DNA of 32,611 nucleotides from a virus (IMGVR_UViG_3300013108_000173:1-32611), one strand, 5' to 3'. Counted from the first letter of the stretch, positions 15,958 through 30,950 are shown. Made by a program: numbers and translations. The notes: generated by a model from the sequence alone, not told the origin.

Positions 15958-15965
15958 AAACAATT

Positions 15966-16154: not shown

Positions 16155-16197
16155 TTGATTCTTTTTCGTTTATTCATGGCGATAAAGTTGTGTTTTA

Positions 16198-16226: not shown

Positions 16227-16252
16227 AATTAAAAAAAAATAAACTTTTTTAG

Positions 16253-16292: not shown

Positions 16293-16310
16293 ATAAAAAA
16301 ACACAACGTT

Positions 16311-16523: not shown

Positions 16524-16528
16524 AAATC

Positions 16529-16548
16529 AAGGGCCTTCGGGCCTTTTA
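16529..16548 (+). terminator. Intrinsic terminator with TTCG tetraloop
   Basis: AAGGGCC (16529-16535) pairs with GGCCTTT (16540-16546, one G-U pair) around the very stable TTCG loop; T residues follow to 16547. It lies directly after the first early gene and 15 nt before the next, so it may tune downstream expression. Confidence 0.7.
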
Positions 16549-16562
16549 AAAACACAACTAAA

Positions 16563-16706
16563 ATGAAGGACAAGCGATTCAAAATAAAAAACGAAAATTT
16601 GTTTTTTGCCTTATTGACGTTATTGGCAATTTTTACAAGCGGTTTATTTTATTGCGAAAAACTTTTCTTGTTTATTAAATCACTTTTTAAAAAGGATCAC
16701 AAATGA
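16563..16706 (+). CDS. 47-residue early membrane protein
   Basis: This short gene starts at an ATG preceded by AACACAAC (16551-16558), the box seen before other early genes, and ends in an ATGA overlap with the next gene. It has a basic N-terminus (MKDKRFKIKN) followed by a hydrophobic segment at about 13-30 (LFFALLTLLAIFTSGLFY) and a second weaker one at about 33-42. It is a probable inner membrane protein. Box, overlap and topology together make it a credible gene despite its size. Function unknown. Confidence 0.65.
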   Translation: MKDKRFKIKNENLFFALLTLLAIFTSGLFYCEKLFLFIKSLFKKDHK

Positions 16707-16888
16707 ATTACGAGGAATTAAAACAACAAAGAATCGACGAACTGGAAAAGAAACTTCGCAACAATGAATACGTTCGGGTGTGGAATGTTATGCCGTACCG
16801 TTTCGAATTGCGCGACCGTCTTGTTGACGATGAACGCGCGTCCGAATACCTTCGCGAATGTATCGACTTAGCAAATGACACAATTTAA
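16703..16888 (+). CDS. Small charged early protein
   Basis: This 61-residue protein is rich in Glu and Arg, beginning MNYEELKQQRIDELEKK, and predicted to be helical. It is translationally coupled (ATGA) to the membrane protein upstream and overlaps the next gene by 14 nt. No family recognised. Confidence 0.6.
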   Translation: MNYEELKQQRIDELEKKLRNNEYVRVWNVMPYRFELRDRLVDDERASEYLRECIDLANDTI

Positions 16889-17204
16889 ACAATCAAAACA
16901 ATTTATAAAAATGCAAGCAATCAAAAATAACATTGAACAACGCGTTCAAGAATTAACAAAGTATTATTACGACAACCCGGAAAAAATCGCAACGATTAAT
17001 CTACTGGAAGAACTTGCGGACGCGGTTGATTTTTATCAAAAACAAGTCGCGTCGTATTATTGCGCAATTGACTGGAATCGACAACAAGGATTCACGGCGT
17101 CGGCAAAAGTTCGGTTTCACAATTGGGAAATCAAGAAAAAGACGTTGACACGACTTCAAAACAGATACAAAATTGTCTTGGAGTTGTTATACGAAACAAG
17201 ATAA
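16875..17204 (+). CDS. Helical early protein of unknown function
   Basis: This 109-residue, Gln/Lys/Tyr-rich, mostly helical protein starts at ATG 16875, overlapping the preceding gene by 14 nt. An internal ATG at 16911 (MQAIKNN) is also a plausible start and would remove a low-complexity N-terminus. It contains aromatic-rich YYYDNPEK and YYCAIDWNRQ segments. No membrane helix or known motif. It may be a DNA- or protein-binding accessory factor. Confidence 0.6.
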   Translation: MTQFKQSKQFIKMQAIKNNIEQRVQELTKYYYDNPEKIATINLLEELADAVDFYQKQVASYYCAIDWNRQQGFTASAKVRFHNWEIKKKTLTRLQNRYKIVLELLYETR

Positions 17205-17222
17205 AACCACAAACACCACACA

Positions 17223-17420
17223 ATGAAACAAGAGTTGAAACAAATCGCAAAACCCGAATCGGTTCATTCGGTTGCGCGTAAAATTAGAAACCACGAAACC
17301 GCCTTTCATAGGGCGGTGCGAACCAAGTCTTTGAAATTTACAGAATTTAAAAAATTTTGTGAACTATGCGACGCAACAATTGTTGTTCGTAAAAATGACG
17401 GAACGGAAATAAAAGTTTGA
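17223..17420 (+). CDS. Small early protein of unknown function
   Basis: This 65-residue basic protein begins MKQELKQIAKPESVHSV and contains NHETAFHRAVRTKSL; it may be a small helical DNA-binding protein, but no helix-turn-helix can be defended. It lies 18 nt after the previous gene, and its stop codon touches the dyad of the next promoter, so it closes this early operon. Confidence 0.6.
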   Translation: MKQELKQIAKPESVHSVARKIRNHETAFHRAVRTKSLKFTEFKKFCELCDATIVVRKNDGTEIKV

Positions 17421-17457
17421 TTGACGTTTGTCAATGTTAATAACTTTTATAATTTAG
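17420..17457 (+). promoter_or_regulatory. Promoter with perfect dyad over the -33 box (recombination/replication operon)
   Basis: TTTG (17427-17430) and TAATTTAG (17450-17457, 7 of 8 to TAnnTTTG) are 19 nt apart. The -33 box lies in the perfect inverted repeat ATTGAC-GTTT-GTCAAT (17420-17435). A protein bound there would block or recruit polymerase for the operon from 17483. Confidence 0.6.
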
Positions 17458-17469
17458 TAATAACTTTTA
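17438..17469 (+). repeat. 12-bp direct repeat flanking the -7 box
   Basis: TAATAACTTTTA occurs at 17438-17449 and 17458-17469, start to start 20 bp, i.e. about two helical turns, on both sides of the -7 element. It could be a regulator binding pair or a product of promoter duplication. Confidence 0.5.
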
Positions 17470-17482
17470 AAACACAACAAAA

Positions 17483-17974
17483 ATGAGTGATTCAAAAACA
17501 CATTGGAAGAATAATTTCGACTATACGTATTTAGGCGGTTATTCAATCGAAGACGAAGACCTTGAATTGACAATTTCAAAGGTTCAAAATGAAATGGTAA
17601 AGGGACAAAGCGGGCGCGATGAATCTTGCATGGTGATTTATTTCGAAGAACTTGACAAGGGAATGATTTGCAACAAGACGAACGCGAAAACAATCACAAC
17701 CGTTCACGGAACGCCATATATTGAAGAATGGCCGGGCAAAAAAATACTTCTTGGAACTGAACGCGTTTCGGCCTTTGGTGAAACAACCGACGCACTACGA
17801 ATACGACAAATTAAGCCAAAAACAAAGGTTGATCCGTCGCAAGCGGTCGCAAGGTTAAAAGGCGCGTTGGACATGGCCGACCTTCAATCAATCTGGAAGT
17901 CTTTGACAAAGGCGGAACAACAAAATAAAACTATTATTAACACTAAAAACACAATGAAGAATGAACTTAGTTAA
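17483..17974 (+). CDS. Putative ssDNA-binding/recombination accessory protein
   Basis: This 163-residue protein lies directly before the YqaJ-like exonuclease gene, overlapping it by 14 nt. The central part is a beta-barrel-like domain: TISKVQNEMV ... CMVIYFEELDKGMICNKTNA ... KILLGTERVSAFGE, consistent with an OB fold. The C-terminal ARLKGALDMADLQSIWKSL resembles the short helix pair found at the end of phage annealing/recombination proteins. I infer a ssDNA-binding or annealing partner of the exonuclease; family assignment by eye only. The ATG is preceded by AACACAAC at 17471-17478. Confidence 0.6.
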   Translation: MSDSKTHWKNNFDYTYLGGYSIEDEDLELTISKVQNEMVKGQSGRDESCMVIYFEELDKGMICNKTNAKTITTVHGTPYIEEWPGKKILLGTERVSAFGETTDALRIRQIKPKTKVDPSQAVARLKGALDMADLQSIWKSLTKAEQQNKTIINTKNTMKNELS

Positions 17975-18587
17975 AGATTTAGAGCAACGCACCGAAGAAT
18001 GGAAGCAAATCCGCAAAGGTTCAATCGGTGGAACCCGTGTCAAAACGGTAATGGCGAAAAACAACCTTCCATTGGTTGACGAATTAATCGCGGAAAAGCA
18101 TTCCGATTTGATTGAAGAAACATTCGTTAATGACGCAATGCAACGGGGAATCGATTTGGAACCGTTTGCAATTGCGGAATTTGAAGACCGAACCGAAATG
18201 AAAGTTGATTTGTTCGGACTTGTGACAAACGATGAATTTCCAGGTTGTCACCTATCGCCGGACGGATTGATTTTGGACGGTTCGGGTGTTCCGTTGTCGG
18301 GTGTTGAGGTGAAATGTCCGTCAACAAAAAAACACGTTGAATATATTCGAACCAATCGCGTTCCGGCCGAATATAAATTTCAAGTTTACCATTATTTTAC
18401 AATTTGCGAAACGATTGAATCAATGTATTTTGTTTCGTACGATCCGCGATTCGAGGTTCGACCTTTTCACATTATCCAAGTAAACCGCGAAGACATCGCG
18501 GACCAGTTGGAAGAATTTGAAACGAAACTTTACAAGTTCATTGATAAATTAAGCGAATACGAATCGCAAATCATTGACACGTTTTAA
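17961..18587 (+). CDS. YqaJ-like (lambda-type) exonuclease
   Basis: This 208-residue protein has the ordered motifs of the YqaJ/lambda exonuclease branch of the PD-(D/E)XK superfamily. These are QRTEEWKQIRKGSIGGTRV at about 9-27, RGIDLEP with Glu67, SPDGLI with Asp101, GVEVKCP with Glu116 and Lys118, and a following Gln141 in YKFQVYHY. It should degrade one strand of linear dsDNA to feed an annealing partner, probably the protein encoded just upstream. The length is typical. The pair probably serves recombination-dependent replication or concatemer formation. Confidence 0.9.
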   Translation: MNLVKDLEQRTEEWKQIRKGSIGGTRVKTVMAKNNLPLVDELIAEKHSDLIEETFVNDAMQRGIDLEPFAIAEFEDRTEMKVDLFGLVTNDEFPGCHLSPDGLILDGSGVPLSGVEVKCPSTKKHVEYIRTNRVPAEYKFQVYHYFTICETIESMYFVSYDPRFEVRPFHIIQVNREDIADQLEEFETKLYKFIDKLSEYESQIIDTF

Positions 18588-18589
18588 AA

Positions 18590-18751
18590 TTGTCTAAAAA
18601 ACCGAAAATTCAATTGTCTATGTTCCCGCAATTCATTTGCGAGATTTGCGGGGACAAATTGGACCACAACGGGACAACTTGTCAAGAATGCGCAACCGCC
18701 TGGATAAAAAAACTTAACGAAAAAACACCAATCAATCAAAATGCAAATTAA
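18590..18751 (+). CDS. Zinc-ribbon miniprotein (53 residues)
   Basis: This short ORF fills the gap between the exonuclease and the DnaA-domain gene, starting at TTG 18590 or ATG 18620. It encodes CEIC ... CQEC, two CxxC pairs separated by about 11 residues, the geometry of a zinc ribbon, followed by an amphipathic helix. It overlaps the next gene by 11 nt. Such miniproteins often bind nucleic acid or RNA polymerase. The two CxxC pairs make it unlikely to be random. Confidence 0.6.
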   Translation: MSKKPKIQLSMFPQFICEICGDKLDHNGTTCQECATAWIKKLNEKTPINQNAN

Positions 18752-19166
18752 TAAAGAACTTGTTTGGAATGCTATGCAACATATCCAAAAACAACAATTC
18801 ACAATGAACGAATTGTTCAAATCAATAGCCGAAGAAATTGAACAAGAAAATGGAAGCTATCCGAAAATTTTTAGATACAACGATATTATTCAAACGGCCG
18901 TTATTGTGACGGGAATCACAATCAATCAACTAAAATCCAAAACACGCCTTCGGTCCGTTGTTTATGTTCGCCAAGCGACGATTTATTTGATACAAAAATA
19001 CACGCCTTTAACAATGCTTAGAACGGGACAAATTTTCAACCGTGACCATTCGACCGTTATCGCTTCAGTTAAGCGCGTAAACGACGCTAAAAACGGTTAT
19101 AACGAACATTTAAAAGAGGTTTTGGAACTCATTGAATCTTGTTTGTTAACCGAAAACCCAATTTGA
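18741..19166 (+). CDS. DnaA domain IV-like replication initiator
   Basis: This 141-residue protein shows the DnaA C-terminal DNA-binding domain from about residue 45. It has ITINQLKSKTRLRSVVYVRQ (compare the helix before the signature), then a helix, then FNRDHSTVIASV (about 99-110), matching the DnaA signature G-R-D-H-T-T-V. There is no AAA+ ATPase part, so it can bind DNA but not remodel it alone. It lies directly before a 240-nt AT-rich non-coding region and the primase-helicase gene, suggesting that it marks the phage origin. It could also act as a transcription regulator. Confidence 0.8.
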   Translation: MQINKELVWNAMQHIQKQQFTMNELFKSIAEEIEQENGSYPKIFRYNDIIQTAVIVTGITINQLKSKTRLRSVVYVRQATIYLIQKYTPLTMLRTGQIFNRDHSTVIASVKRVNDAKNGYNEHLKEVLELIESCLLTENPI

Positions 19167-19406
19167 AAAGGCGAAAAGGCGTAGAAATACCGTTCAACTT
19201 ATTTCTTATTTTATATTATTATATTCTTTATTTATTTATTATTAATTTAATCCGCCAAAATAAAGGAAAAAGAGAATAAAAGAATATAAAAGTATAATAA
19301 ACACTAAGGTTTGAACGATGGCGGACTTGAAAATAAAAAACCGCCAACAAACGCCAAAAAACCGCCGTTTATTTTTAATTTTAAAAACACAACTTCTTAT
19401 TAGACT
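19167..19406 (+). other. AT-rich repeat-bearing region, candidate replication origin
   Basis: This 240-nt gap between the DnaA-domain gene and the primase-helicase gene starts with a tandem AAAAGGCG repeat (19166-19181). It continues with about 70 nt of almost pure A/T (19197-19250) and ends with CGCC-type elements: CCGCC at 19252, GGCGG at 19320, CCGCC at 19341, CGCC at 19352, CCGCC at 19362. An easily melted tract next to short repeated sites is the classic origin layout. No TTATCCACA-type DnaA box is visible. A 30-codon ORF (19318-19410) crosses the elements but looks fortuitous. Confidence 0.5.
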
Positions 19407-21779
19407 ATGAAAATAACTTGTTACAAGTCACTATTCAATCCAAAAGCGGGTGACTTCCAAATCCCAGTTGAAAAAGCATTCAACCGAATCAAAAACGGTT
19501 CATCAAAAACACTTCTTGAAAAAATTCGAACCGTTGAAAACAAAGACGAAAAAAACAAATTAAAACAACAACTTCCGTGCTATTTATTTGCGGGGACGTT
19601 TTCCGCAAGAAACGACAATTCGATTGTTGAACATTCCGGATTGATTGCACTTGATTTCGACGGATTTCCCGACAAAAAAACTTTTAAGACTTGGCGCGAT
19701 ACATTGGAAGCCGATGAACACACAATGTCGGTTTTCACTTCACCAAGTGGGGACGGACTGAAGGCAATCGTCAAAATTCCAAAATGCGATAGGGACGAAC
19801 ACAAACTTTACTTCACCGCATTAGAAAAGTATTTTGATTGTGAATATTTCGACACGTCTTGCAAAAATATATCGCGGGCGTGTTACGAATCGTACGATCC
19901 GAAAATATTTGTCAACCTGGAATCAAAACTTTGGACCGAAAAAACAGAAGAACAAGGATACCAATTCACCGACCGCGAACCGCAAATTGTACTAAAGGAA
20001 ACGAACGAAATAATTGAACGTTTGTTGAAATGGTGGAACCGTGACTTCGGACTTGTTAAGGGTGCGAGAAATAACAATCTTTTTATCCTTGCGTCTTCGT
20101 TCAACGAATACGGCGTTGACCAGTATGTTGCGGAATCGACAATTTTGTCGCAAATCGTTGGGGGTTCAATGCCGGAAAAGGAAGTTGAAAACGTTATCAA
20201 ATCCGCATATAAAGCGCGTCACCAATTCGGAACGAAATATTTTGAGGACCGCAAGACTTATCGACAAATTGAAACGCAAGTGAAACGCGGGGTTCCGATG
20301 GAAAAAATTCAAGATTCAATTCCACAAGCCGACGCGCAAACAATCGAAGCAATCAAGAAAAGTTCAAAGGACATCATTTTTTGGTTTATGGTTGAAACGC
20401 GTCAAGGTGAACGCGTTGTGATTGACAACGTTCAATTGAAATTGTTTTTGGAAAAAGAAGGATTCTTCAAGTTTTATCAAGAAAAATCAGAAACACCAAT
20501 TTTCATAAACATAAAAGAAAACATCGTTCGAAATTCAAGCGCAACAAAAATCAAAGATTTTGTTTTGAATTATTTATTCGACCGAAACGAACTTCAAGTT
20601 TGGAATTATTTGGCTTCAACGACAAAATATTTCACCGACGTTTTTTTGTCGTTCCTGGAATCAATTGAGTTAAAAATGCAAACCGATTCAAAAGACACCG
20701 TTTACCTTTATTTTCAAAACGGGGTTGTTGAGGTTAAAAAAGACGAACAAAGATTTTTGGACTTCATGGATTGCGATGGATACATTTGGGAAGACCAGAT
20801 TATAAAAAGAGAATACAAAGCAAGCAAAACCGACGCGAATGATTTCAAAAAGTTTGTTCACCGAATAAGTGCGGACGAACAAAAACGAATTCAAACGATG
20901 GAATCAACACTTGGTTATTTGATGTCATCGCACAAGGACAAGACCGACCAAAAATCAATTATTTTTAATGACCAAGAAATTTCCGACGGGAATCCAAACG
21001 GCGGTTCTGGGAAGTCTTTAATTTTAACCGCATTAGGGCAATTCAAAAAACTTGTCACAATTGACGGGAAATCATTCGACGCGAACAAATCGGATTTCGT
21101 TTATCAACGTGTCAACCTGGATACACAAGTTCTTGCGTTTGACGATGTCAAAAGAAAATTCAATTTCGAAAGTTTGTTTTCGTTAATTACGGAAGGAATA
21201 ACAGTCAACCGAAAAAACAAAGATGAAATTTTCATTCCTTTTGAGAATTCACCGAAAATAATAATCACAACGAATTATGTAATTGACGGCGCGGGATCAA
21301 GTCACGACCGAAGGCGACACGAAGTTGAATTGTTCCAGTATTTCAACCAATTCCGAACGCCGTTGGACGAATTTGGAAAACTTTTGTTCGACCAATGGGA
21401 CGTGAACGAATGGCACAAGTTCGACGCGTACATGATTAATTGCGTCAAATTGTTTTTGAATTTTGGACTAATGAAACCCGAATCAATCAACGCAAACACG
21501 AAACGTTTTATTCAATCAACGTCAAAAGATTTCTTCGACTGGATTCAAGACGATTCACTTCCACACAATTGCAAAGTTTATACGTCCGAAATTGTTGACG
21601 ATTTCAAAAAGGAATTTTCGGATTTTTCGAAAATATCAAATCAACGCTTTATTTCTTGGGTGAAAAACTATTGTAATTTCAAAGGGTACGAATACGAAGC
21701 ATTTAAAACACCGCGACGCGGTTTTCAGATACTAACAAAAAAACACGACACAATCGACGGTCAACCATTACCGTTTTAA
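19407..21779 (+). CDS. Primase-helicase fusion (BT4734/VirE-N-like primase plus SF3-type helicase)
   Basis: This 790-residue protein has an N-terminal part (about 1-175) with IALDFDGFPDKKTF, FTSPSGDGLKAIVKIP and NISRACYESYDP, the pattern of BT4734/VirE-N-type archaeo-eukaryotic primase domains known from Bacteroidota elements. A helical PriCT-like linker follows (about 195-285). The C-terminal helicase has a P-loop GGSGKS (about 532), Walker B VLAFDDV (about 572), and KIIITTN (about 616, motif C Asn) followed by DRRRHEVE. It should prime and unwind phage DNA at the fork. It starts 13 nt after AACACAAC (19386-19393) and lies directly after the candidate origin. Confidence 0.88.
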   Translation: MKITCYKSLFNPKAGDFQIPVEKAFNRIKNGSSKTLLEKIRTVENKDEKNKLKQQLPCYLFAGTFSARNDNSIVEHSGLIALDFDGFPDKKTFKTWRDTLEADEHTMSVFTSPSGDGLKAIVKIPKCDRDEHKLYFTALEKYFDCEYFDTSCKNISRACYESYDPKIFVNLESKLWTEKTEEQGYQFTDREPQIVLKETNEIIERLLKWWNRDFGLVKGARNNNLFILASSFNEYGVDQYVAESTILSQIVGGSMPEKEVENVIKSAYKARHQFGTKYFEDRKTYRQIETQVKRGVPMEKIQDSIPQADAQTIEAIKKSSKDIIFWFMVETRQGERVVIDNVQLKLFLEKEGFFKFYQEKSETPIFINIKENIVRNSSATKIKDFVLNYLFDRNELQVWNYLASTTKYFTDVFLSFLESIELKMQTDSKDTVYLYFQNGVVEVKKDEQRFLDFMDCDGYIWEDQIIKREYKASKTDANDFKKFVHRISADEQKRIQTMESTLGYLMSSHKDKTDQKSIIFNDQEISDGNPNGGSGKSLILTALGQFKKLVTIDGKSFDANKSDFVYQRVNLDTQVLAFDDVKRKFNFESLFSLITEGITVNRKNKDEIFIPFENSPKIIITTNYVIDGAGSSHDRRRHEVELFQYFNQFRTPLDEFGKLLFDQWDVNEWHKFDAYMINCVKLFLNFGLMKPESINANTKRFIQSTSKDFFDWIQDDSLPHNCKVYTSEIVDDFKKEFSDFSKISNQRFISWVKNYCNFKGYEYEAFKTPRRGFQILTKKHDTIDGQPLPF

Positions 21780-21791
21780 AAACTTTAAACA

Positions 21792-21977
21792 ATGTCAAAA
21801 ATACTCATAACAAAAATGAAGGTTGAAAAGGGTTCAATCGAAATATCTGAAGCGAAAATCGTCGACGCGAACGGAAACCCGACAAGAAGCGTTTCAATCA
21901 ACGAATCGTTTGCGGTTGCGCTTAAAGGTTCGATAATTAATTTGGATTTGTCACACCTTAAAAACGAAACGAAATGA
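21792..21977 (+). CDS. Small protein between primase-helicase and acetyltransferase
   Basis: This 61-residue beta-strand-like protein (SKILITKMKVEKGSIEISE ...) starts 12 nt after the primase-helicase gene and ends in an ATGA overlap with the acetyltransferase gene. It has no Cys or membrane segment. No family recognised. Confidence 0.55.
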   Translation: MSKILITKMKVEKGSIEISEAKIVDANGNPTRSVSINESFAVALKGSIINLDLSHLKNETK

Positions 21978-22534
21978 ATTTAGGAAAATTTAATTGTTCA
22001 ACCGGGATAATCAATATTTTATATAGTGATAAAATAAAAAACATTTCGGTTCGAACAAGTACAATTAAAGATATGTTACTTGTTGACAAACTTCAAAAAG
22101 AAAATAGTTTTGCCGTTGGCTTTATTCAAAAAACGGTTTGGGAAAAATACGTTTGGGGGGGTGAAAGAAATTTTGTTGTTTTAATTTGTGAAGCAAACGC
22201 GGACGCGGTCGGCTATGTTTTAATTACACCGGGAAAAGGCGGTTATAAGTATGCAAAAATTCAACAAATTGCAATCCGCAACGATGCAAGGCGTTTGCAA
22301 TATGGAACCGCATTGATTGATTGTTGTCGTCAATTTTGCGAACAATTTGGTCGAATTGGTTTCACTTTGCGTTGTCGTGTTGATTTAGAATCAAACAAGT
22401 TTTGGAAAAGTTTAGGATTTGAAAAATATGATGTTTGGGAAAAGGGGAAAATTAATCATGTCGGTTTTAAAGCAAGTGACAACATTAATTTATGGAAAAT
22501 TGAATTGAATAATAAAATTTATAGACTTTTTTAA
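21974..22534 (+). CDS. GNAT family N-acetyltransferase, paralogue 1
   Basis: This 186-residue protein has the GNAT core. IQQIAIRNDARRLQYGTALI (about 96-115) corresponds to beta4 and the acetyl-CoA pyrophosphate loop (R-x-x-x-G-T/A), and TLRCRVDLESNKFWKSLGFE corresponds to the last helix/strand region. It shares TLRC-DLE-NKFW-GF with the 26052 gene. The target is unknown: protein, small molecule or modified base. It is coupled (ATGA) to the preceding small gene and followed at 1 nt by the SF2 helicase gene. Codons look more A/T-rich than in the flanking replication genes, hinting at separate acquisition. Confidence 0.8.
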   Translation: MNLGKFNCSTGIINILYSDKIKNISVRTSTIKDMLLVDKLQKENSFAVGFIQKTVWEKYVWGGERNFVVLICEANADAVGYVLITPGKGGYKYAKIQQIAIRNDARRLQYGTALIDCCRQFCEQFGRIGFTLRCRVDLESNKFWKSLGFEKYDVWEKGKINHVGFKASDNINLWKIELNNKIYRLF

Positions 22535-22535
22535 A

Positions 22536-23762
22536 ATGTTTGAATTAAGACCAATCCAGGAACAAAAATCAACGGAACTGAAAAAAGTTGTTCGAAAACA
22601 TCGAATCGGAATCCTTGCGGGTGAAGTGCGGTCCGGGAAAACATTGACCGTTCTTGCAACGGCCGAAAAGCTACGAAAAAAACACGTTCTTTTTTTAACG
22701 AAAAAACGCGCAATGTCTTCGATTTTATCCGATTATAAACTTGCGGGATTTACGTTCAAACTAACTTTAATCAATTACGAATCAATCCACAAAGCCGACA
22801 CAAAATCCGTTGACCTGGTTGTTTGTGATGAATCACACACGATGGGCGCGTTTCCGAAACCGTCCAAACGAACAAAGGCCGTTCGCGATATTGTCGCAAC
22901 AAACAAACTTGATTTGATTCTTGCGTCCGGAACAATTCACCCGGAATCGATTGCGCAAATATTCCACCAACTATTCGTGTCCTACTACACGCCGTTTAAA
23001 AGCGTGAATTTTTATCATTGGGCGAAAAAATATGTTGATGTTTACAAAATAAAAATCAACGGTTACGACGTGAACCAATACGACCGAACACACGACCAGT
23101 TGATTGAAGAAGTTGTCGCGCCGTTAAAAGTGACAATGACACAAAATGACGCGGGATTCACATCGAAAGTTTTTGAGAATTTCGAAACGGTTGAACTTCG
23201 TCCAATTACTTATAAATTAATTAATCAACTAAAAAGGGATTTAGTAATTGAGGGAAAAACGGAAACGATTTTGGCGGACACGTCGGTAAAATTGCAACAA
23301 AAATTGCATCAACTCTATTCGGGAACAATAAAATTCGAATCTGGCAACCGAACCGTGATTGATCCGACAAAGGCGGAATTTATTGCAAAGAAATGGAACG
23401 GTCAAAAAATCGCAATATTTTACAAATTTGTTGCCGAACTCGACGCAATCAAATCCGTGTACGGCGATAATATAACGACGGATTTGGACGAATTTAACGC
23501 AACCGGTAAAAGTTACGCGGGGCAAATTGTTTCTTCGCGTGAAGGCGTTAATTTAAGCAAAGCGGACGTTTTGGTTTTTTACAACATCGATTTTTCCGCC
23601 GTGTCTTATTTCCAAGCGCGGGACCGACTAACAACAAAAGAACGAACCGAAAACAATGTTTTTTGGATATTCTCAAAAGACGGAATCGAACGCGCAATCT
23701 ATAAGGCCGTATCGAAGAAAAAAGACTTCACATTGAACGTTTTTAAAAATTATTTGAAATAA
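22536..23762 (+). CDS. SF2 (SNF2/DEAD-like) helicase
   Basis: This 408-residue protein has Q-motif-like LRPIQEQ at 4-10, Walker A GEVRSGKT (about 29-36), Walker B VVCDESH (DESH at about 98-101), motif III LASGTIHP (about 129-136), motif V SSREGVNLSKADVLVFYN and motif VI QARDRL. This matches compact phage SF2 helicases. Motif VI has the DR of SNF2 proteins (QAxDRxxR) but lacks the second Arg, a possible arginine-finger change. It probably works with the VRR-NUC nuclease encoded about 1.1 kb downstream in DNA processing or recombination. It lies 1 nt after the acetyltransferase gene. Confidence 0.85.
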   Translation: MFELRPIQEQKSTELKKVVRKHRIGILAGEVRSGKTLTVLATAEKLRKKHVLFLTKKRAMSSILSDYKLAGFTFKLTLINYESIHKADTKSVDLVVCDESHTMGAFPKPSKRTKAVRDIVATNKLDLILASGTIHPESIAQIFHQLFVSYYTPFKSVNFYHWAKKYVDVYKIKINGYDVNQYDRTHDQLIEEVVAPLKVTMTQNDAGFTSKVFENFETVELRPITYKLINQLKRDLVIEGKTETILADTSVKLQQKLHQLYSGTIKFESGNRTVIDPTKAEFIAKKWNGQKIAIFYKFVAELDAIKSVYGDNITTDLDEFNATGKSYAGQIVSSREGVNLSKADVLVFYNIDFSAVSYFQARDRLTTKERTENNVFWIFSKDGIERAIYKAVSKKKDFTLNVFKNYLK

Positions 23763-23776
23763 ATTTCATTTTTTAG

Positions 23777-23816
23777 TGAATAAATTTGTTCACAGACAAT
23801 AAATAAACTATATTTA
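23777..23816 (+). promoter_or_regulatory. Early promoter with operator, copy 2
   Basis: TTTG (23785-23788) and TATATTTA (23809-23816, 7 of 8 to TAnnTTTG) are 20 nt apart, as in copy 1. The -33 box lies in TGAATAAATTTGTTCA (23777-23792), a near-perfect palindrome centred on AAATTT with one mismatched pair. It should drive the gene at 23843. Confidence 0.68.
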
Positions 23817-23842
23817 TAAAAAAAACGCAAAAACACAACAAA

Positions 23843-24148
23843 ATGAATCAAAAGCAACTTAACATTAAAATTGAAAACCTTAAAGAAGGCGATTTTTTGG
23901 ATTTTACAAGAACAAACATCGGACAAGCCGGATTGATTATTCAAGTTGTAACCGAAAAAGCTATAAAAGTAAATAACAATTGGATACCAAAAAGTCAAAT
24001 TGTAAATGTTGAATATGGGTATAAATACAAGGGCATTGAATCAAATGAAAAATTTACAGAATGTAAACAAATTATTTTATCACAATGGTTTGATGATAAA
24101 CTTGCCAATGAAAATTGGGAAAAAAGAAAGGGTTCATGCGCTTATTAA
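23843..24148 (+). CDS. Early protein behind promoter copy 2, possible SH3-like barrel
   Basis: This 101-residue protein is the first gene behind the second copy of the early promoter/operator; AACACAAC ends 3 nt before the ATG. The pattern LKEGDFLDFTRT ... GLIIQVVTEKAIKV ... WIPKSQIVNVEY looks like a small beta-barrel, loosely similar in layout to the 16311 gene product, which also follows this promoter type. The C-terminal part is charged and contains two Cys. Codons are notably A/T-rich. Function unknown; a host-takeover role is possible. Confidence 0.6.
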   Translation: MNQKQLNIKIENLKEGDFLDFTRTNIGQAGLIIQVVTEKAIKVNNNWIPKSQIVNVEYGYKYKGIESNEKFTECKQIILSQWFDDKLANENWEKRKGSCAY

Positions 24149-24167
24149 AAACAAAAACACAACGAAA

Positions 24168-24509
24168 ATGAATTACGCAATTATAGACTATAAGCAAAAA
24201 AATGGTAAAATTGATTTTAACAACGCAATTTTAGACACACCAAACGGACAACATTTTTTACAACATTTAACAAATAAAGGGTATTACTCTAAAAAACCGC
24301 TTTATATAGATATTGAGTATAATTATCACAATGACGGCGGGGTTGATTGTTTAATCATATCGGAAAAGACTTTCAAATATTTGTTTGATAATTACACAAA
24401 TTTAAACGGTAAAATATTTCAAACTTACGAGCAAAGAAAAAGAAAAGAAAAAACCGTCGGTGATTTGGCTTGGTGTGATGTAATGAAAGATCCTTATGAT
24501 ATAGGATAA
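24168..24509 (+). CDS. AT-rich early protein of unknown function
   Basis: This 113-residue protein is taken from ATG 24168 because AACACAAC (24156-24163) ends 4 nt before it; the longer open frame upstream overlaps the preceding gene and has no such leader. It begins MNYAIIDYKQKNGKIDF, is rich in Tyr, Asn and Lys, and ends in charged KRKEKTVGDLAW. No membrane segment or known motif. It shares the A/T-rich codons of the gene before it, and the two may have been acquired together. Confidence 0.6.
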   Translation: MNYAIIDYKQKNGKIDFNNAILDTPNGQHFLQHLTNKGYYSKKPLYIDIEYNYHNDGGVDCLIISEKTFKYLFDNYTNLNGKIFQTYEQRKRKEKTVGDLAWCDVMKDPYDIG

Positions 24510-24555
24510 AATTAAAACAACTATAAAAATTGAAGAATTTAAAAAACACAACAAA

Positions 24556-24711
24556 ATGAATCAACAACAAATTATTGAAGAACTGGAAGAACTTGTCGAA
24601 ATGGCAAGTTTTCCCGTTCCGTATGAAGACGATACGGAACAAACATTTCGAGCCGTCGAAGTTGGCGACATTGAAAAAATAATTGACAAAATTAAAAACG
24701 CAACAAAATGA
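24556..24711 (+). CDS. 51-residue acidic early protein
   Basis: This short gene has the AACACAAC box ending 3 nt before its ATG and an ATGA overlap with the next gene, strong signs of real translation. The product is acidic (ELEELVEMA, EDDTEQTF) and ends with KIIDKIKNATK. It resembles its downstream neighbour in being a small helical acidic protein. Function unknown. Confidence 0.6.
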   Translation: MNQQQIIEELEELVEMASFPVPYEDDTEQTFRAVEVGDIEKIIDKIKNATK

Positions 24712-24938
24712 AAGACATTCACGAACTTTTGGAATCGTTGGTCCAAACATACAACGAACGAAAACCAATGAAATACGAAGACCTTCGCGACATAATCGCG
24801 CAAGTTGACAATAAAAAATTGGTTCATCAATTTATTGAAGTTTACGAAAACAAAGAACAATTGAATTTCATACATTTAAGAAGTTTGGAAAATTATATTG
24901 AATATGACCGAATCGAAAATTCAGAAAAAAATAATTGA
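24708..24938 (+). CDS. Small helical early protein
   Basis: This 76-residue charged helical protein (MKDIHELLESLVQTY ...) starts in an ATGA overlap; the leader AACGCAAC is one base different from the AACACAAC box. It overlaps the nuclease gene downstream by 35 nt. No family recognised. Confidence 0.6.
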   Translation: MKDIHELLESLVQTYNERKPMKYEDLRDIIAQVDNKKLVHQFIEVYENKEQLNFIHLRSLENYIEYDRIENSEKNN

Positions 24939-25158
24939 CAACTTCACAAATCGCGGGTTCATGGTTATTAAACTAATGAAAACCAACACAAACGGAATTC
25001 CGGACTTGTTGATTCTTAAAAATGGAATCGCGAAATTTGTTGAGGTGAAGAAACCAGGCGGAAAAATATCACAACTACAAAAATACCGAATTAAAAAACT
25101 TCGGGAACAAAATTTTGAAGCGGTTGTGATGGACGGAATTGATTCAATAATTTATTAA
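24904..25158 (+). CDS. VRR-NUC domain nuclease
   Basis: This 84-residue single-domain protein starts at ATG 24904 (TTG 24898 is possible). Motifs of the VRR-NUC branch of PD-(D/E)XK nucleases are clear. These are ESKIQKKIIDNFTNRGF at the start, NGIPDLLIL with Asp34, FVEVKKPGGKIS with Glu47 and Lys49, Gln59 in SQLQKY, then the helix and VVMDG. Stand-alone phage VRR-NUC proteins are structure-specific endonucleases, thought to cut branched DNA, often encoded near helicases and primases as here. Length is normal for the phage form. Confidence 0.88.
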   Translation: MTESKIQKKIIDNFTNRGFMVIKLMKTNTNGIPDLLILKNGIAKFVEVKKPGGKISQLQKYRIKKLREQNFEAVVMDGIDSIIY

Positions 25159-25161
25159 ATT

Positions 25162-25308
25162 ATGAGCGAAAACAGTTTAATTCGAAAAGAAAAAAAAGGA
25201 AATTCACGGTCGTTCGAAGTCGTTGAATTTGGGAAAAAATATATTATTTTTGAAAAACGTACAAAGCGCGGAAAATGGATTCGGTCCGGAAGAATGCGCA
25301 TTGAATAA
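25162..25308 (+). CDS. 48-residue basic protein
   Basis: This short ORF lies 3 nt after the nuclease gene. The protein is very basic with a beta pattern: SFEVVEFGKKYIIFEKRTKRGKW, ending IRSGRMRIE (split here for length: strands at about 18-31 and 37-46). It could be a small nucleic-acid-binding protein. Close spacing and continuous pattern support it; no family recognised. Confidence 0.5.
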   Translation: MSENSLIRKEKKGNSRSFEVVEFGKKYIIFEKRTKRGKWIRSGRMRIE

Positions 25309-25340
25309 TTAAATTAATAACCAATTAAAACCATAAACAA

Positions 25341-25619
25341 ATGGAAATCAAAGGAACAATCGTTCAAGTCAATCCGGTCGAAACGGTCGGAAAAAACAAC
25401 TTCAAGAAATCAACAATTTGGATTGAAACGTCGGACCAATATCCGCAAACAATTGAAATCGAATTTGTAAAGGATAAAGCCGACGAAATTCAATCACTTG
25501 CACTTGGAACCAATATCACCGTTCAAATAAATATAAACGGCCGAAAATGGACCAGTTCGGAAGGCGTGACAAAGGTTTTTAATTCAATTCAAGGTTGGCG
25601 ATATGAAACCGATTTTTAA
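25341..25619 (+). CDS. DUF3127 family protein, possible phage SSB
   Basis: This 92-residue protein matches the DUF3127 pattern known mainly from Bacteroidota: MEIKGTIVQVNPVETVGKNN, WIETSDQYPQTIEIEFVKDK, LGTNITVQININGRKW and a final aromatic GWRYE. The family is predicted to have an OB fold like single-stranded DNA-binding proteins. In a replication region without another obvious SSB it may protect ssDNA at the fork. There is no acidic C-terminal tail of the bacterial SSB type. It overlaps the next gene by 17 nt. Confidence 0.78.
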   Translation: MEIKGTIVQVNPVETVGKNNFKKSTIWIETSDQYPQTIEIEFVKDKADEIQSLALGTNITVQININGRKWTSSEGVTKVFNSIQGWRYETDF

Positions 25620-25827
25620 TCCAAAAACTTGCGAACTTAGAAAAGCGGTAATTTTGAACCATATAAAAGAACACCGCAACGCAATTGACAACGTTCAAAC
25701 TTGTTTGGCGTATCACCCGGAAATCGACCTTGAAACATTTCAAGAACGATTCAACGCACTTGAAAGAAAACATCGACGATTAATCGCAACAATAACGCTT
25801 TATGAAACAACAAAAAAAAGTAATTAG
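25603..25827 (+). CDS. Small His/Cys-containing helical protein
   Basis: This 74-residue protein starts within the end of the DUF3127 gene and overlaps the next gene by 26 nt. It is helical, with Cys10, Cys34 and several His; metal binding is possible but not a clear motif. No family recognised. Confidence 0.55.
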   Translation: MKPIFNPKTCELRKAVILNHIKEHRNAIDNVQTCLAYHPEIDLETFQERFNALERKHRRLIATITLYETTKKSN

Positions 25828-26038
25828 TACGGAAGAACTTCCAACAAAATTCGGTTGGCCGTTTTGGATTATTTACTATTTAATACTTGACAAACTAAAC
25901 GCAAACGCGACGGCTTGGATTGTTGGCGGTTCCGTTCTTTTGGTTTGGATTCTTTTATTCGGGTTTATAAAAAGCCGGGAAGAATCGTTTTCAATACTTA
26001 GATTAAAAACCGCCATTGAAAAATGGATTTTGGAATAA
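25802..26038 (+). CDS. Small two-segment membrane protein
   Basis: This 78-residue protein has hydrophobic segments at about 18-30 (GWPFWIIYYLIL) and 38-55 (AWIVGGSVLLVWILLFGF), with charged ends. It is a probable inner membrane protein made early. The overlap of 26 nt with the previous gene and the ATG in TTATGAAAC suggest coupling. Function unknown; superinfection exclusion or membrane anchoring of replication are possibilities. Confidence 0.55.
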   Translation: MKQQKKVISTEELPTKFGWPFWIIYYLILDKLNANATAWIVGGSVLLVWILLFGFIKSREESFSILRLKTAIEKWILE

Positions 26039-26051
26039 AATTTTTTAAAAA

Positions 26052-26663
26052 ATGGAAGACTTTGTAATTGTAAAAGAACACCCAGACTTATTGAAATATG
26101 TTGATGATTTGCAAAAGAAAAACGCGGAACAATTAAGTTTTTATCCAAAACAAGTTTTTGAACGTGAAAAAGAAAAAGGCCGTTTATTCTTGGGATTGTT
26201 AAACGGACAACCTTGCGGATATATTTACGTAGGTGCGCCGGGCGGTGACGTTAAATGTCATCAAGTTTGCATTCAATACGACGCAAGGCGGAAATTATAT
26301 GGCGCAAGTTTAGTTGTTGCGCTCGAAAACTACGCAAACGAAAGTTTATCAAATTCAATTACTTTGCGTTGTGGGTTTGATTTAGAAGCCAATAAATTTT
26401 GGCGTGAAATGGGTTTTAATTGCATAGCAATAAAACAAGGCGGAATTCGAAGAATGCGCAAAATCAACGTTTGGCGCAAATATTTACAACCGCAATTGTT
26501 TGAACCGGAATGGATTGAACCGGTAAAGGGGAAAGCTAATTCAACTTTGTGGAGAAAACACAAAGAAACCGGAATTGTGACGCGTTTTAATCGAGGAAAA
26601 AAACTTGATGAATATCGATTGAAAATATTTGAAAAAAATAAAAACAATGATTATCCAAGTTGA
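26052..26663 (+). CDS. GNAT family N-acetyltransferase, paralogue 2
   Basis: This 203-residue protein shares the GNAT core with the 21974 gene. VCIQYDARRKLYGASLVV (about 74-91) holds the acetyl-CoA loop, and TLRCGFDLEANKFWREMGF (about 102-120) is the shared block. After the GNAT domain it has an extra basic tail of about 60 residues (NSTLWRKHKETGIVTRFNRG) that paralogue 1 lacks and that may bind DNA or another partner. Substrate unknown. It overlaps the next gene by 17 nt. Confidence 0.8.
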   Translation: MEDFVIVKEHPDLLKYVDDLQKKNAEQLSFYPKQVFEREKEKGRLFLGLLNGQPCGYIYVGAPGGDVKCHQVCIQYDARRKLYGASLVVALENYANESLSNSITLRCGFDLEANKFWREMGFNCIAIKQGGIRRMRKINVWRKYLQPQLFEPEWIEPVKGKANSTLWRKHKETGIVTRFNRGKKLDEYRLKIFEKNKNNDYPS

Positions 26664-26862
26664 AAACATAGTTGAACAAACAATCGTTCAAAAGGATTTG
26701 GAAGAAAACGCAATCGAAACGCAAACAATCGAACCCAAAAACAACACCGCAAGTTTTATCGTTGTAAATTATACCAAACCAATTGAAAACGCGGTCGATT
26801 TTGTTCGTTGGAATGCGGACAAAATCGTCACGTTTGACCAATGGCGAAAAGGGTTTTTTTAA
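26647..26862 (+). CDS. Small early protein of unknown function
   Basis: This 71-residue protein is taken from ATG 26647 (the frame also has a TTG at 26629). It starts inside the acetyltransferase gene. The N-terminal part is Glu/Gln-rich (VENIVEQTIVQKDLEENAIE) and the C-terminal part aromatic (FVRWNADKIVTFDQW). No known motif. Confidence 0.55.
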   Translation: MIIQVENIVEQTIVQKDLEENAIETQTIEPKNNTASFIVVNYTKPIENAVDFVRWNADKIVTFDQWRKGFF

Positions 26863-26883
26863 CAACAAAAACAATCAAATAAA

Positions 26884-27057
26884 ATGCCGAAAACATATAA
26901 AATCGAAATTACCGAAACACTACAAAGACAAATCGAAATCGAAGCAAATTCACCCGTTGACGCGTCGATAAAAGCACAAGAACAATGGAACGAAGACCAA
27001 ATCGTTTTGGATTCTGAAGACTTTGTGGACGTGGAAATAAAAGTGATAAAAGAGTAA
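26884..27057 (+). CDS. DpnD/PcfM-like small protein
   Basis: This 57-residue protein matches the DpnD/PcfM-type pattern: KTYKIEITETLQRQIEIEAN, a central helix, then QIVLDSEDFVDVEIKVI. Members are small phage and mobile-element proteins of unclear role, some named from the DpnII restriction locus. It lies in the early region between the acetyltransferase cluster and small membrane proteins. The ATG has an AAATAAA-type leader. Confidence 0.65.
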   Translation: MPKTYKIEITETLQRQIEIEANSPVDASIKAQEQWNEDQIVLDSEDFVDVEIKVIKE

Positions 27058-27064
27058 AAACACA

Positions 27065-27298
27065 ATGACGGATCAAGACAAAGAAATATTGGAAACTGAA
27101 CTATTCAACAAAGTTTTATTGAATAGAATCGAGCAAAAACGCGACGAAATAAAAGAACTAAAATCGACTAATTACAAGCTAAAAACACAACTAAAAAAAC
27201 AATCCGGTTCGCAATTAATCAAAGAAATTTTTGCCTTTGTCGGAATGATTTCAATCGCGATTTTTACACTTTTGGCACTTTATAAAGCGTTTTTGTAA
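27065..27298 (+). CDS. Coiled-coil protein with C-terminal membrane helix
   Basis: This 77-residue protein has a charged coiled coil at about 1-48 (RIEQKRDEIKELKSTNYKLK) followed by one membrane helix at about 55-75 (IFAFVGMISIAIFTLLALYK). It is probably tail-anchored in the inner membrane. The ATG follows AACACA directly, a shortened form of the early box. Function unknown. Confidence 0.6.
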   Translation: MTDQDKEILETELFNKVLLNRIEQKRDEIKELKSTNYKLKTQLKKQSGSQLIKEIFAFVGMISIAIFTLLALYKAFL

Positions 27299-27307
27299 AT
27301 TCGTACA

Positions 27308-27604
27308 ATGAGCGAAAACCAAAAAATCAAGCTAACACGTAAACAAATTACAACGCTAATTTCAATCGTTGTCCTATTTCTAAGCGGTGAAACTTTCGTC
27401 GGTGCGAAACTAATCGAATCCAAAATTCAAGACTTTTCACGTCCCGAAATCAATCCATATTTCGTCGGTTTCTTTATCGAAAAAGCATCGAAAAAAATGC
27501 GATTTAAGCACCTTGACGGGGAAATTTATCGACCAATAATCGACGAAAAAACCGGTCGTTATTTCATTATTTTAGACAACAATCAACGCGTTTTTTGTTA
27601 TTAA
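27308..27604 (+). CDS. N-terminally anchored membrane/periplasmic protein, last early gene
   Basis: This 98-residue protein has a basic start (SENQKIKLTRKQ), a hydrophobic helix at about 14-32 (TLISIVVLFLSGETFVG) and a soluble remainder probably outside the inner membrane. It closes the early region just before a terminator and the repeat-rich non-coding region. It could be an exclusion or envelope protein. Family unknown. Confidence 0.6.
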   Translation: MSENQKIKLTRKQITTLISIVVLFLSGETFVGAKLIESKIQDFSRPEINPYFVGFFIEKASKKMRFKHLDGEIYRPIIDEKTGRYFIILDNNQRVFCY

Positions 27605-27608
27605 TTCG

Positions 27609-27641
27609 AGGCGAAACAAACTTTTTTTCCCGCCTTTTTTT
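27609..27641 (+). terminator. Candidate terminator after the early region
   Basis: AGGCG (27609-27613) can pair with CGCCT (27631-27635), with further AAA/TTT pairs inside, followed by a long T run to 27641. It lies 5 nt after the last early gene, the expected position. Confidence 0.5.
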
Positions 27642-27969
27642 CTGAAGTCAATCCGCCTTTTTCACTTTTTTCTGTTTTTGTTCTTCCAAAATCAACATTT
27701 TTTGTCGGGCGGTTTGATTTGTTCCGCCGTTTTTAGGTTCGTTCGCCTTGTGTCCGCCCACAAGTCCGCCATTTAAAGTAAAGGTTTAATTAATCTTTGT
27801 ATTTTATTTAGTATCAATTAGTTACCTTACTATATTTATATATTATTTAGTTAGCTTTTCCCATTTTTGGCGGAGTGGCGGAGTAGTCTATATAATAAAT
27901 AAAATAAAACAAGTTTATGAAATGAGAGATAAGTAAAAGAAAAAGTTTGCCCATACGCCAAAACGCCAA

Positions 27970-28002
27970 TTTGAAAAAATCAATAAAAATTGCGTAAATT
28001 AG
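27970..28002 (+). promoter_or_regulatory. Candidate promoter for the packaging operon
   Basis: TTTG (27970-27973) and TAAATTAG (27995-28002, 7 of 8 to TAnnTTTG) are 21 nt apart, about 30 nt before the small terminase ATG. The tandem ACGCCAA elements (27955-27970) abut the -33 box, a good operator or activator position. Confidence 0.5.
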
Positions 28003-28031
28003 TCTAAATCGAAAAAGGGAAATTCGTATCA

Positions 28032-28481
28032 ATGGCGACGCAAAAAAACAAAGTCGGGAAACCACGAGAAATAAAATCACCGGAACAAATGAAAAGTTTG
28101 TTTGAACAGTACAAACAATTTTGTAAAAATAATCCGTGGATTGAAATCGATTTTGTTGGAAAAGACGCAAAGCGCGTTGAACGTCCAAAAACAATTCCTT
28201 ACACAAAAAAAGGATTTGCACTTTTTGCGGGACATTCCGAATGGCGGTCAATTACTGATTACAAAAACGAATCAAAAGAATTTGCCCTAGTCATTACGCG
28301 TATAGAAAACGAAATTTACAATCACAAATTTATTGGTTCTTCAATTGGTGCGTTCAATTCTTCAATTATTGCGTCGGACTTAGGTTTGAAAAATAGAACC
28401 GAAAACACCAACAAAACCGAACTAAAAATTTCCGTGTCCGACGGACTTGACAAAAAACTTGATGACTTGATTTCGGATTGA
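28032..28481 (+). CDS. terS: Terminase small subunit (gp3-like)
   Basis: This 149-residue protein begins with a basic GKPREIKSPEQMKSLFEQYK of the gp3-like DNA-packaging family. The middle follows the pattern of that family (TKKGFALFAGHSEWRSITDY, then a helix), ending with ASDLGLKNRTENT and a charged tail. It should form a ring that recognises viral DNA and loads the large subunit, whose gene follows after 3 nt. The repeat-rich region just upstream is a natural binding target. Confidence 0.85.
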   Translation: MATQKNKVGKPREIKSPEQMKSLFEQYKQFCKNNPWIEIDFVGKDAKRVERPKTIPYTKKGFALFAGHSEWRSITDYKNESKEFALVITRIENEIYNHKFIGSSIGAFNSSIIASDLGLKNRTENTNKTELKISVSDGLDKKLDDLISD

Positions 28482-28484
28482 TAA

Positions 28485-29708
28485 ATGAAACTTTCAAAGC
28501 TATTCGAAAAGATTGCGGGCGGTTTCAAACAAAATCGTTTTGTGATTAATCAAGGCGGGACCAGTTCGGGCAAAACTTATTCAACGCTTCAATTTTTGAT
28601 TGTTTGGTCTTTGAAATCGGATCACAACAAATTGGTTTCAATTGTTGCCGAATCGATTCCACATTTGAAGCGGGGCGCTTATCGCGATTTCTTAAAAATA
28701 TTAATCGAATCAAATCTTTACCAGGAAGACAAACACAACAAAACGGATTTCACCTACAAATTGGGTTCATTTTATTTTGAATTCTTTTCGGCCGACAATG
28801 ACGCAAAACTTCGCGGTGCGCGTCGTGACGTTCTTTATATCAACGAATGTAACAATGTAACGTGGGACGCATTCACACAATTAGAAATTCGAACCCGTGA
28901 CAAAATCTTTTTGGACTTCAATCCCGTGTCCCGGTTTTGGGTTCATTCAAAGTTGATGAATCCGAACAATTCATATTCGTTTATAAAATCAACCTATCTT
29001 GACAACGTGGACCATTTGACCGGACAACCATTGTTGGAAGAATCAATCATAAAAGCGATTGAATCGCGCAAACCCGTCTATGATTCGGACGGGAATATTT
29101 TGAGCGGTGACGAACAATTCTGGAAGGTTTACGGATTGGGTGAAGTTGGTTCAATGGAAGGCGTTATTTTCAACAATTGGGAAACGGTCGATTCGATTCC
29201 CGACGTTGGCAAATGGTCCGCGTTTGGTCTTGACTTTGGTTTCACGAACGATCCGACCGCGATTGTTCGCGTCGTGTATCAAGGCGGGGACCTTTGGATT
29301 GAAGAACTTTGTTTTGAACCTGGATTGACGAACCCGGATATTGTTGAAAAATTGAAATCGGTCGGAGTTGGAACGCTTGACGATATCATTGCGGATTCTT
29401 CCGAACCAAAATCAATCGCGGAAATTCGTCGCGGTGGGTTCCGCGCGTGTCGAGGTGTCAAGAAGGGACCGGATTCGATAACAAACGGAATTGACATTTT
29501 GAAACGCTACCGAATAAAAATTCACAAAAAAAGTACTAACTTGATTGAAGAATTTTCGAATTACCAATGGTTCAAAACAAAAGACGGTGAATATTTGAAC
29601 AAGCCGATTGACAACTTCAATCACGGAATCGACGCGATTCGATACGTTTGTTTTGATAAAATTGGAATGAATCGACAAATCAAAAAAGGAATAAAACGAA
29701 GAAATTGA
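28485..29708 (+). CDS. terL: Terminase large subunit
   Basis: This 407-residue packaging motor has a P-loop GGTSSGKT (about 24-31) and Walker B VLYINECN (about 117-124, Glu as catalytic base). The RNase H-like nuclease part begins with GLDFGFTNDPTAIV (about 247-260, first metal-binding Asp), followed by DDIIADSSEPKSI and the final NHGIDAIRY (last metal-binding Asp). It drives ATP-dependent DNA entry and cuts the concatemer. Length and motif order fit the PBSX/SPP1-like (Terminase_3) group. Confidence 0.95.
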   Translation: MKLSKLFEKIAGGFKQNRFVINQGGTSSGKTYSTLQFLIVWSLKSDHNKLVSIVAESIPHLKRGAYRDFLKILIESNLYQEDKHNKTDFTYKLGSFYFEFFSADNDAKLRGARRDVLYINECNNVTWDAFTQLEIRTRDKIFLDFNPVSRFWVHSKLMNPNNSYSFIKSTYLDNVDHLTGQPLLEESIIKAIESRKPVYDSDGNILSGDEQFWKVYGLGEVGSMEGVIFNNWETVDSIPDVGKWSAFGLDFGFTNDPTAIVRVVYQGGDLWIEELCFEPGLTNPDIVEKLKSVGVGTLDDIIADSSEPKSIAEIRRGGFRACRGVKKGPDSITNGIDILKRYRIKIHKKSTNLIEEFSNYQWFKTKDGEYLNKPIDNFNHGIDAIRYVCFDKIGMNRQIKKGIKRRN

Positions 29709-29714
29709 AATTGA

Positions 29715-29954
29715 ATGACAATCAAAACGCAAATACTTTGCAAGGAACAAACCGAACATGATTCAACACCGCGTGAGTATTGGGAAAAGTTTGAATTTGA
29801 TATTCGGTCCTATGTTGCGCACAGTGAACATGATTTCGGTTCGGTTTTGTATTTGTCCGGCTTGCTTGTTTCGGTTGTGATTAAATTATCTTTTGAAGAA
29901 TTGTCCGAAAAACTACAAATTTTTAATAGTTTTGAAACCATTGGCCTAAACTAG
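29715..29954 (+). CDS. Small protein after the large terminase gene
   Basis: This 79-residue acidic protein starts 6 nt after terL and is followed by a hairpin. Residues 40-60 are moderately hydrophobic (GSVLYLSGLLVSVVIKLSF), possibly one membrane segment or a buried helix. No family recognised. It belongs to the packaging operon by position. Confidence 0.55.
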   Translation: MTIKTQILCKEQTEHDSTPREYWEKFEFDIRSYVAHSEHDFGSVLYLSGLLVSVVIKLSFEELSEKLQIFNSFETIGLN

Positions 29955-29976
29955 AAGTTTTTGTTTATGGTTTCGG

Positions 29977-30008
29977 GGGTTGAACACGTACGGTTCGCCC
30001 TCGTTTTT
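29977..30008 (+). terminator. Candidate terminator after the packaging genes
   Basis: GG-TTGAAC (about 29978-29985) pairs with GTTCG-CC (29993-29999) with one mismatch, around ACGTACG, followed by TTTTT at 30004-30008. It separates terL and the small gene from the strongly placed promoter of the tail-tube-like gene. Confidence 0.45.
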
Positions 30009-30033
30009 GAAATAAAAAAAAATTGTATATTTA
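30007..30033 (+). promoter_or_regulatory. Candidate promoter for the tail-tube-like gene
   Basis: TTG (30007-30009) and TATATTTA (30026-30033, 7 of 8 to TAnnTTTG) are separated by 16 nt, slightly short of the usual range. A 73-nt A/T-rich leader with an AGGATT stretch follows before ATG 30107. A private promoter would suit a highly expressed virion protein. Confidence 0.4.
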
Positions 30034-30106
30034 CAACAAACACCGTTTGGATTTTTAAGGGTAGAAACCAAAAGGATTATTTTTAAACTTTTTAAAAAGA
30101 ATAAAT

Positions 30107-30721: not shown

Positions 30722-30724
30722 AAA

Positions 30725-30949: not shown

Positions 30950-30950
30950 A

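Follow-up and report, generated by a model that had tools for sequence, protein, structure and literature searches.

Bacillus phage SPP1 carries two separated arrays of direct repeats with an AT-rich element, oriL and oriR, both of which are bound by the protein gp38 (G38P) (PMC6316719, PMC3485210). Twin phage origins are thus already known, and DnaA-like initiators have been named on mobile elements, namely Rickettsia plasmids and Bacillus phage Pony (PMC4750851, PMC3853050). The present analysis concerns a single virus record in IMG/VR (IMGVR_UViG_3300013108_000173), whose entire stretch of 32,611 bases is referred to as the window, and in particular two of its non-coding regions, R1 (19167-19406) and R2 (27605-28031), in which GGCG/CGCC elements are clustered. 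These elements are probably the boxes of a phage-encoded protein that consists of the DNA-binding domain IV of DnaA, with R1 as a putative replication origin and R2 as a second, origin-like copy.

The likeness to SPP1 is one of arrangement: in both phages one array lies in the replication gene region while the other occupies an extended intergenic interval amid the late genes, a single phage-encoded binder serves both arrays (in the window, this is proposed), and a phage recombination exonuclease is present, which in the window is a RecE/YqaJ exonuclease accompanied by an SSB-like gene. The systems differ in their proteins, which are gp38, the gp39 loader and the DnaB-type gp40 in SPP1 and a proposed DnaA domain-IV binder with a primase-helicase next door in the window; in the distance between the arrays, which is 12-13 kb in SPP1 and about 8.2 kb in the window; and in that the two copies are inverted in the window and direct in its sister phages. 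Fork stalling is a feature of SPP1. The bacterial oriC/DnaA system shares with the window the fold of domain IV, a set of several oriented boxes adjoining AT-rich DNA and, in one class of relatives (class C below), a word near the DnaA box, but the window protein has 141 amino acids and no AAA+ domain, its box word has diverged, and other loading machinery would be expected. The initiators of the Rickettsia plasmids and phage Pony are DnaA-like by annotation, and the portions of those two reports that were consulted do not describe box arrays, a second origin or word switching. Caudoviricetes sp. ctfjg026 (MW202828) has a single cluster of genes annotated as dnaA-domain, exonuclease, helicase and VirE-type primase (the last with 41% identity), but the dnaA gene of this cluster does not immediately precede the primase; the comparison covers its genes. 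A search of the open literature found no phage initiator that consists of DnaA domain IV alone and is paired with a duplicated box array of switching word, nor any account of this initiator family or its boxes.

The clustering of the elements was evaluated against dinucleotide shuffles (1000 for each region). R1 contains seven GGCG/CGCC cores, four of them extended to CCGCC/GGCGG, compared to 0.98 +/- 0.89 (maximum 4) in its shuffles, and R2 contains 12, eight of them five-mers, compared to 1.98 +/- 1.27 (maximum 6). The core density is 28.5 per kb in the two regions combined and 5.9 per kb in the rest of the window, and no other 240-nt or 427-nt segment of the whole 32,611-nt stretch matches the core count of R1 or R2, respectively. 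The excess is chiefly one of CGCC on the + strand, with 12 occurrences in the 667 nt of R1 and R2 and 42 in the remaining 31.9 kb; GGCG by itself is frequent in coding sequence. The other + strand gaps of at least 90 nt hold 0 or 1 core each. The first-pass annotation had described both regions as non-coding, with clusters of CCGCC/GGCGG or ACGCCAA (about 5 in R1 and about 11 in R2) and tandem 8-bp repeats in each. This description holds: neither region contains a plausible gene, the elements are present in slightly greater number than estimated, and same-strand sites separated by exactly 8 bp occur in both regions, at 19166/19174, 27869-27884 and 27955/27963. Among relatives, the R1 sites are better conserved than the spacers between them (identity 0.89 vs 0.69), and 1 of 230 circular shifts does equally well; in R2 the same contrast is evident only at the core sites, near 27766, 27869 and 27956. 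The strongest T-to-A switch in a window-wide scan is the one in R1, but R2 is unremarkable in the same scan, so the switch is no genome-wide marker. An Rfam search for RNA elements gave no match, and intrinsic terminators and sigma-70-type promoters do not clearly exceed shuffled expectation over 14800-32611.

The seven boxes of R1, which is assigned to the + strand, are ordered >><><<< around a T-rich to A-rich core, where > denotes GGCG (or GACG, see below) on the + strand and < its reverse. The array opens with a tandem pair on the + strand, GGCGAAAAGGCG (19170-19181), with 8-bp spacing, in which the repeat AAAAGGCG begins at 19166 and 19174. An inverted box, CCGCC (19252-19256, - strand), marks the centre of the T-rich/A-rich switch, and is followed by GGCGG on the + strand (19320-19324, within ATGGCGGACTTG) and by three - strand boxes, CCGCC, CGCC and CCGCC, in steps of 10-11 bp ahead of the primase gene (19341-19366); a copy of ACGCCAA, the third in addition to two in R2, lies at 19351.

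The significance of this layout emerges from the relatives, L002-L118, which are loci obtained from IMG/VR scans with TerL, primase, DnaA_C and TerS. In about 60 of these loci the primase is preceded by a DnaA_C gene, which is usually its immediate neighbour, and the spacer between the two is short and non-coding and carries a repeated word that varies by clade. The word is GGCG/CGCC in class A (the window, L031-L040, L042, L045 and L046), GACG/CGTC in class B (L113-L116), TGTGGAAT in class C (L054 and L057) and GTGACGAT in class D (most of L063-L108), while L048-L053 have weaker GTGACG-like repeats and a longer DnaA_C-primase gap. With positions given relative to the first box, the layout is >0 >8 <83 >150 <172 <182 <193 in R1 of the window, >0 >8 <82 >136 <168 <179 <199 in that of L113 (and identically in L114-L116), and >0 >8 <77 <85 >131 <150 <160 <191 in an example from class D. 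Box order, orientation, similar spacing and the first 8-bp pair are therefore maintained across classes A, B and D despite differing words; the distant phages with the class C word also share the layout of R1. When the window was scanned for any G/C-rich 4-mer present in two copies 8 bp apart with an inverted copy 65-95 nt further on, the matches were GGCG at 19170, 27869 and 27967 (with overlapping 4-mers there) and three isolated matches of other words. A plain-sequence alignment of the R1 regions of the window and L113 scores 37, below the best shuffle (47), and the homology of these two regions consequently rests on layout and gene position. Arrays recur at this location between the DnaA_C and primase genes in many relatives. 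The earlier designation of 19167-19406 as a candidate origin is supported. A genome scan for possible hosts found three distant primase relatives in Bacteroidota metagenome-assembled genomes, but no close prophage.

The DnaA_C gene of the window occupies 18741-19166 on the + strand, directly before R1. Its product matches Pfam PF08299 (Bac_DnaA_C, 4.5e-16), the sole domain matched in its 141 amino acids, so that the AAA+ ATPase domain III of DnaA proper is absent, and it has sequence matches in the PDB to 3pvp, 8btg and 1j1v. It is predicted by AlphaFold2 to adopt the fold of the DnaA DNA-binding domain: the model has a pLDDT of 83, with values above 90 across most of the domain, and is confident over most of residues 46-136. 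A Foldseek search with the model yields strong matches exclusively to DnaA structures, including the DnaA-DNA complexes 3pvp and 1j1v (TMt 0.80-0.84). Because its gene adjoins R1, its model is confident and it matches structures of DnaA bound to DNA, the DnaA_C protein is the natural candidate for the box-reading protein. When E. coli DnaA binds its box, the TnCACA part is read by the recognition helix and the TTA part by Arg399 (PMC5742627). The phage words, aligned as the 8-mers TGTGGAAT, TGGCGGAT, TGACGSWT and TGACGATR, differ chiefly at positions 3-4, and we infer from this alignment of our own that they resemble the helix-read part of the DnaA box in reverse (TGTGGATAA), to which the class C box is near; the variation would then fall in the part that the recognition helix reads. 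At the position equivalent to Arg399, the class A proteins have Arg and those of class B have Lys. The DnaA_C proteins of classes B-E are only about 16-23% identical to that of the window. Two further variants were seen among these genes: a Cys/His-rich C-terminal tail resembling a zinc-binding motif in L036:6815-7357 and L038:643-1185, and two tandem DnaA_C-type genes upstream of the primase in L054:4020-4677.

The relation between R1 and R2 is clearest in L113, where direct alignment of the two regions scores 119 against 22.6 +/- 2.6 (maximum 36) for shuffles, and all seven R1 boxes recur in order in R2. In the window it is the reverse complement of R2 that aligns with R1, with a score of 50 (300 shuffles, 23.2 +/- 3.1, maximum 39), whereas the direct orientation is near background (31.5; shuffles 22.8 +/- 2.6, maximum 32.5). 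Other class A combinations behave similarly: R1 of L034 scores 90 with the reverse of R2 from L019 (shuffles 23 +/- 2.9), and the inverted pair from L036 and L022 scores 77.5. Class A pairs mostly score higher inverted than direct, and a number of pairs stay at background, as does the alignment of the window R2 with the L113 R2 in both orientations. These scores indicate that R2 holds a copy of the origin region, with inverted orientation in class A and direct orientation in class B, and, judged by the alignments, R1 and R2 are homologous. The window accordingly contains two distant homologous repeat arrays with an AT-rich segment. In the class D records, which are about 27-31 kb long, the word is clustered in R1 alone, and R2 is therefore particular to the A/B clade.

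The 12 boxes of R2, whose core is homologous to inverted R1 and which is assigned to the - strand, fall into parts. Eight lie to the left in T-rich DNA (27610-27770, at 27610, 27631, 27654, 27708, 27725, 27744, 27755 and 27767), and several of these are conserved in L002-L007. Further on are two tandem pairs with 8-bp spacing, GGCGGAGT twice on the + strand (27869-27884) and CGCCAAAACGCC on the - strand (27956-27967), the latter with ACGCCAA at 27955 and 27963. The boxes at 27610-27770 have no counterpart in R1, and R2 of L113 is likewise extended leftward. A partly palindromic element resembling TTAAAGTAnnACTTTAA (27771-27795) stands beside a box, and is conserved in R2 of classes A and B, in R1 of class B and in L011.

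The two arrays also change their word together. DnaA_C, R1 and R2 occur on one contig in four cases, two from each class. In the window and L110 there are seven CGCC-type cores in R1 and 11-12 in R2, with no CGTC in either array; in L113 and L115 there are seven CGTC-type cores in R1 and 9-13 in R2, with 0-2 CGCC. The change affects about 16-19 sites at two locations that are 7-8 kb apart, as would be expected were both arrays read by one protein whose preference has shifted, and we infer from the concerted switch that a single phage protein reads both. Of the earlier suggestion that a shared binding protein, either the DnaA-domain protein or the small terminase, links the two regions, the shared protein is well supported by this joint change between clades, and the 18741 protein fits the part; TerS does not, for reasons given below.

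The following mechanism for binding, origin activity and the role of R2 can be proposed. The 18741 protein would bind boxes of 8-9 bp, approximately TGGCGGAT, and from the seven boxes of R1 would open the T-rich/A-rich segment, at which the neighbouring primase-helicase would then load. R2 would be a duplicated copy of the origin at the border between the early and late genes, inverted in the clade of the window, and would most likely serve as a late origin or as a fork barrier of the SPP1 oriR kind; it may additionally influence the adjoining late promoter.

Several points weigh against this proposal. A spacing of 8 bp leaves little room for boxes about 9 bp long. An origin of this kind can do without R2, since the class D phages have no R2 cluster, and R2 of the window includes the additional boxes that R1 lacks. 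The joint switch of word is effectively one evolutionary contrast, because the contigs that combine both arrays with DnaA_C number only four, and the pair from class A is near-identical. The boxes might in principle be read by some other protein that phages of this clade encode.

Regulation alone is also conceivable because both arrays adjoin promoter-like stretches. The boxes would then be operators through which the DnaA-domain protein, or another phage regulator, controls a primase promoter at R1 and a late promoter at R2 and so times early and late expression, with the T/A-rich cores as promoter DNA. DnaA proteins can double as transcription factors, and R2 is located at the early/late boundary with its boxes just upstream of a promoter-like TAnnTTTG stretch. 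Seven boxes spread over 200 nt in an inverted layout around a T/A-rich switch, and retained in very diverged phages, nevertheless go beyond what an operator needs; class D phages retain just the primase-side copy, and R2 of L113 repeats all seven boxes of R1, so that operators are an unlikely identity for the arrays. That the boxes are read by the DnaA of the host or by another host factor is very improbable: the class C boxes do resemble the canonical DnaA box, but the sole TTATNCACA-type site of the window, at 11375, lies outside both arrays, and host DnaA boxes are rejected on this ground. The words moreover differ between sister phages, while the specificity of host DnaA is generally conserved, and a phage DnaA-domain gene is adjacent.

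In a further reading, R2 would be the packaging start or a TerS-binding (pac) site, with its likeness to R1 secondary; the packaging link suggested in the first-pass annotation is unsupported where it relies on TerS. R2 of the window does directly precede terS and terL, but the comparison of TerS types with box words rejects TerS as the reader, since the word does not track TerS type across the relatives. The TerS of L011, which has class B CGTC boxes, is 76% identical to that of the window; a second type is represented by proteins 75% identical in L013 (class A) and L014 (class B), and hence with either word; and a third, in L007, whose likeness to the window TerS is limited to a short C-terminal tail, has the same class A CGCC layout. 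Nor does terS come directly after R2 in L113, L013 and L026, where the next genes are ParB-like and methyltransferase-type. A pac site is likewise very improbable. The idea that the arrays are artefacts of composition, or remnants of genes once encoded on the minus strand of A/T-rich spacers, draws on the fact that they are G/C islands in A/T-rich DNA and on the A-rich minus strand of the left part of R2, which is like the coding strands here; it is refuted by shuffles that give 1-2 sites rather than 7-12, and by an order, orientation and 8-bp spacing that are conserved under changed words, and its probability is negligible.

A wider account can also be put forward, although only tentatively and with somewhat less than even confidence. 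A family of Bacteroidota phages would use an initiator reduced to the DNA-binding domain of DnaA, and its word would have undergone repeated rewriting (to give TGTGGAAT, TGGCGGAT, TGACGSWT and GTGACGAT) under a constant oriented layout. Duplication of the entire origin in the A/B clade would have been accompanied by joint rewriting of both copies, and the second copy would initiate concatemer formation in the role of a late origin or fork barrier. Such a family would provide a matched series of initiators and origins in which the protein-DNA code varies and the architecture is constant, so that DnaA-type recognition might be decoded by swapping parts. It also suggests SPP1-like twin origins in Bacteroidota phages with a different initiator, so that a second system would be available for testing the proposed theta-to-sigma switch.

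The YqaJ/RecE-type exonuclease (17961) lies upstream of the DnaA-domain gene, R1 and the primase-helicase (19407-21779, + strand; phrog_28855, 5e-177; PF08800), which has a BT4734-like N domain and, in alignment, a conserved GGSGKS Walker A motif; downstream are an SF2-type helicase (22536) and the SSB-like protein (25341). R2 is flanked by the last small early gene (27308-27604) and by the TerS, TerL, head and portal genes. A conserved stretch of the TAnnTTTG type, promoter-like by the standard of Bacteroidota promoters, together with the leader of the first late gene (27970-28031, + strand), is similar in L007, L011, L013, L017, L019, L026 and L113, whichever gene comes next. TerS itself (28032-28481, + strand) is of the P22 gp3 type (phrog_606, 2.4e-24; PF16677). 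The ParB-like and methyltransferase-type genes of L113 (10960-12533), L013 and L026 are inserted between R2 and terS, and the leader of the first gene stays similar. Three TerS types, represented by 28032-28481 in the window, L007:5496-5903 and L014:9627-9998, have been swapped ahead of related TerL genes, and have only a short C-terminal tail in common. The early region of the window also holds two GNAT acetyltransferase-like genes, at 21974-22534 and 26052-26663.

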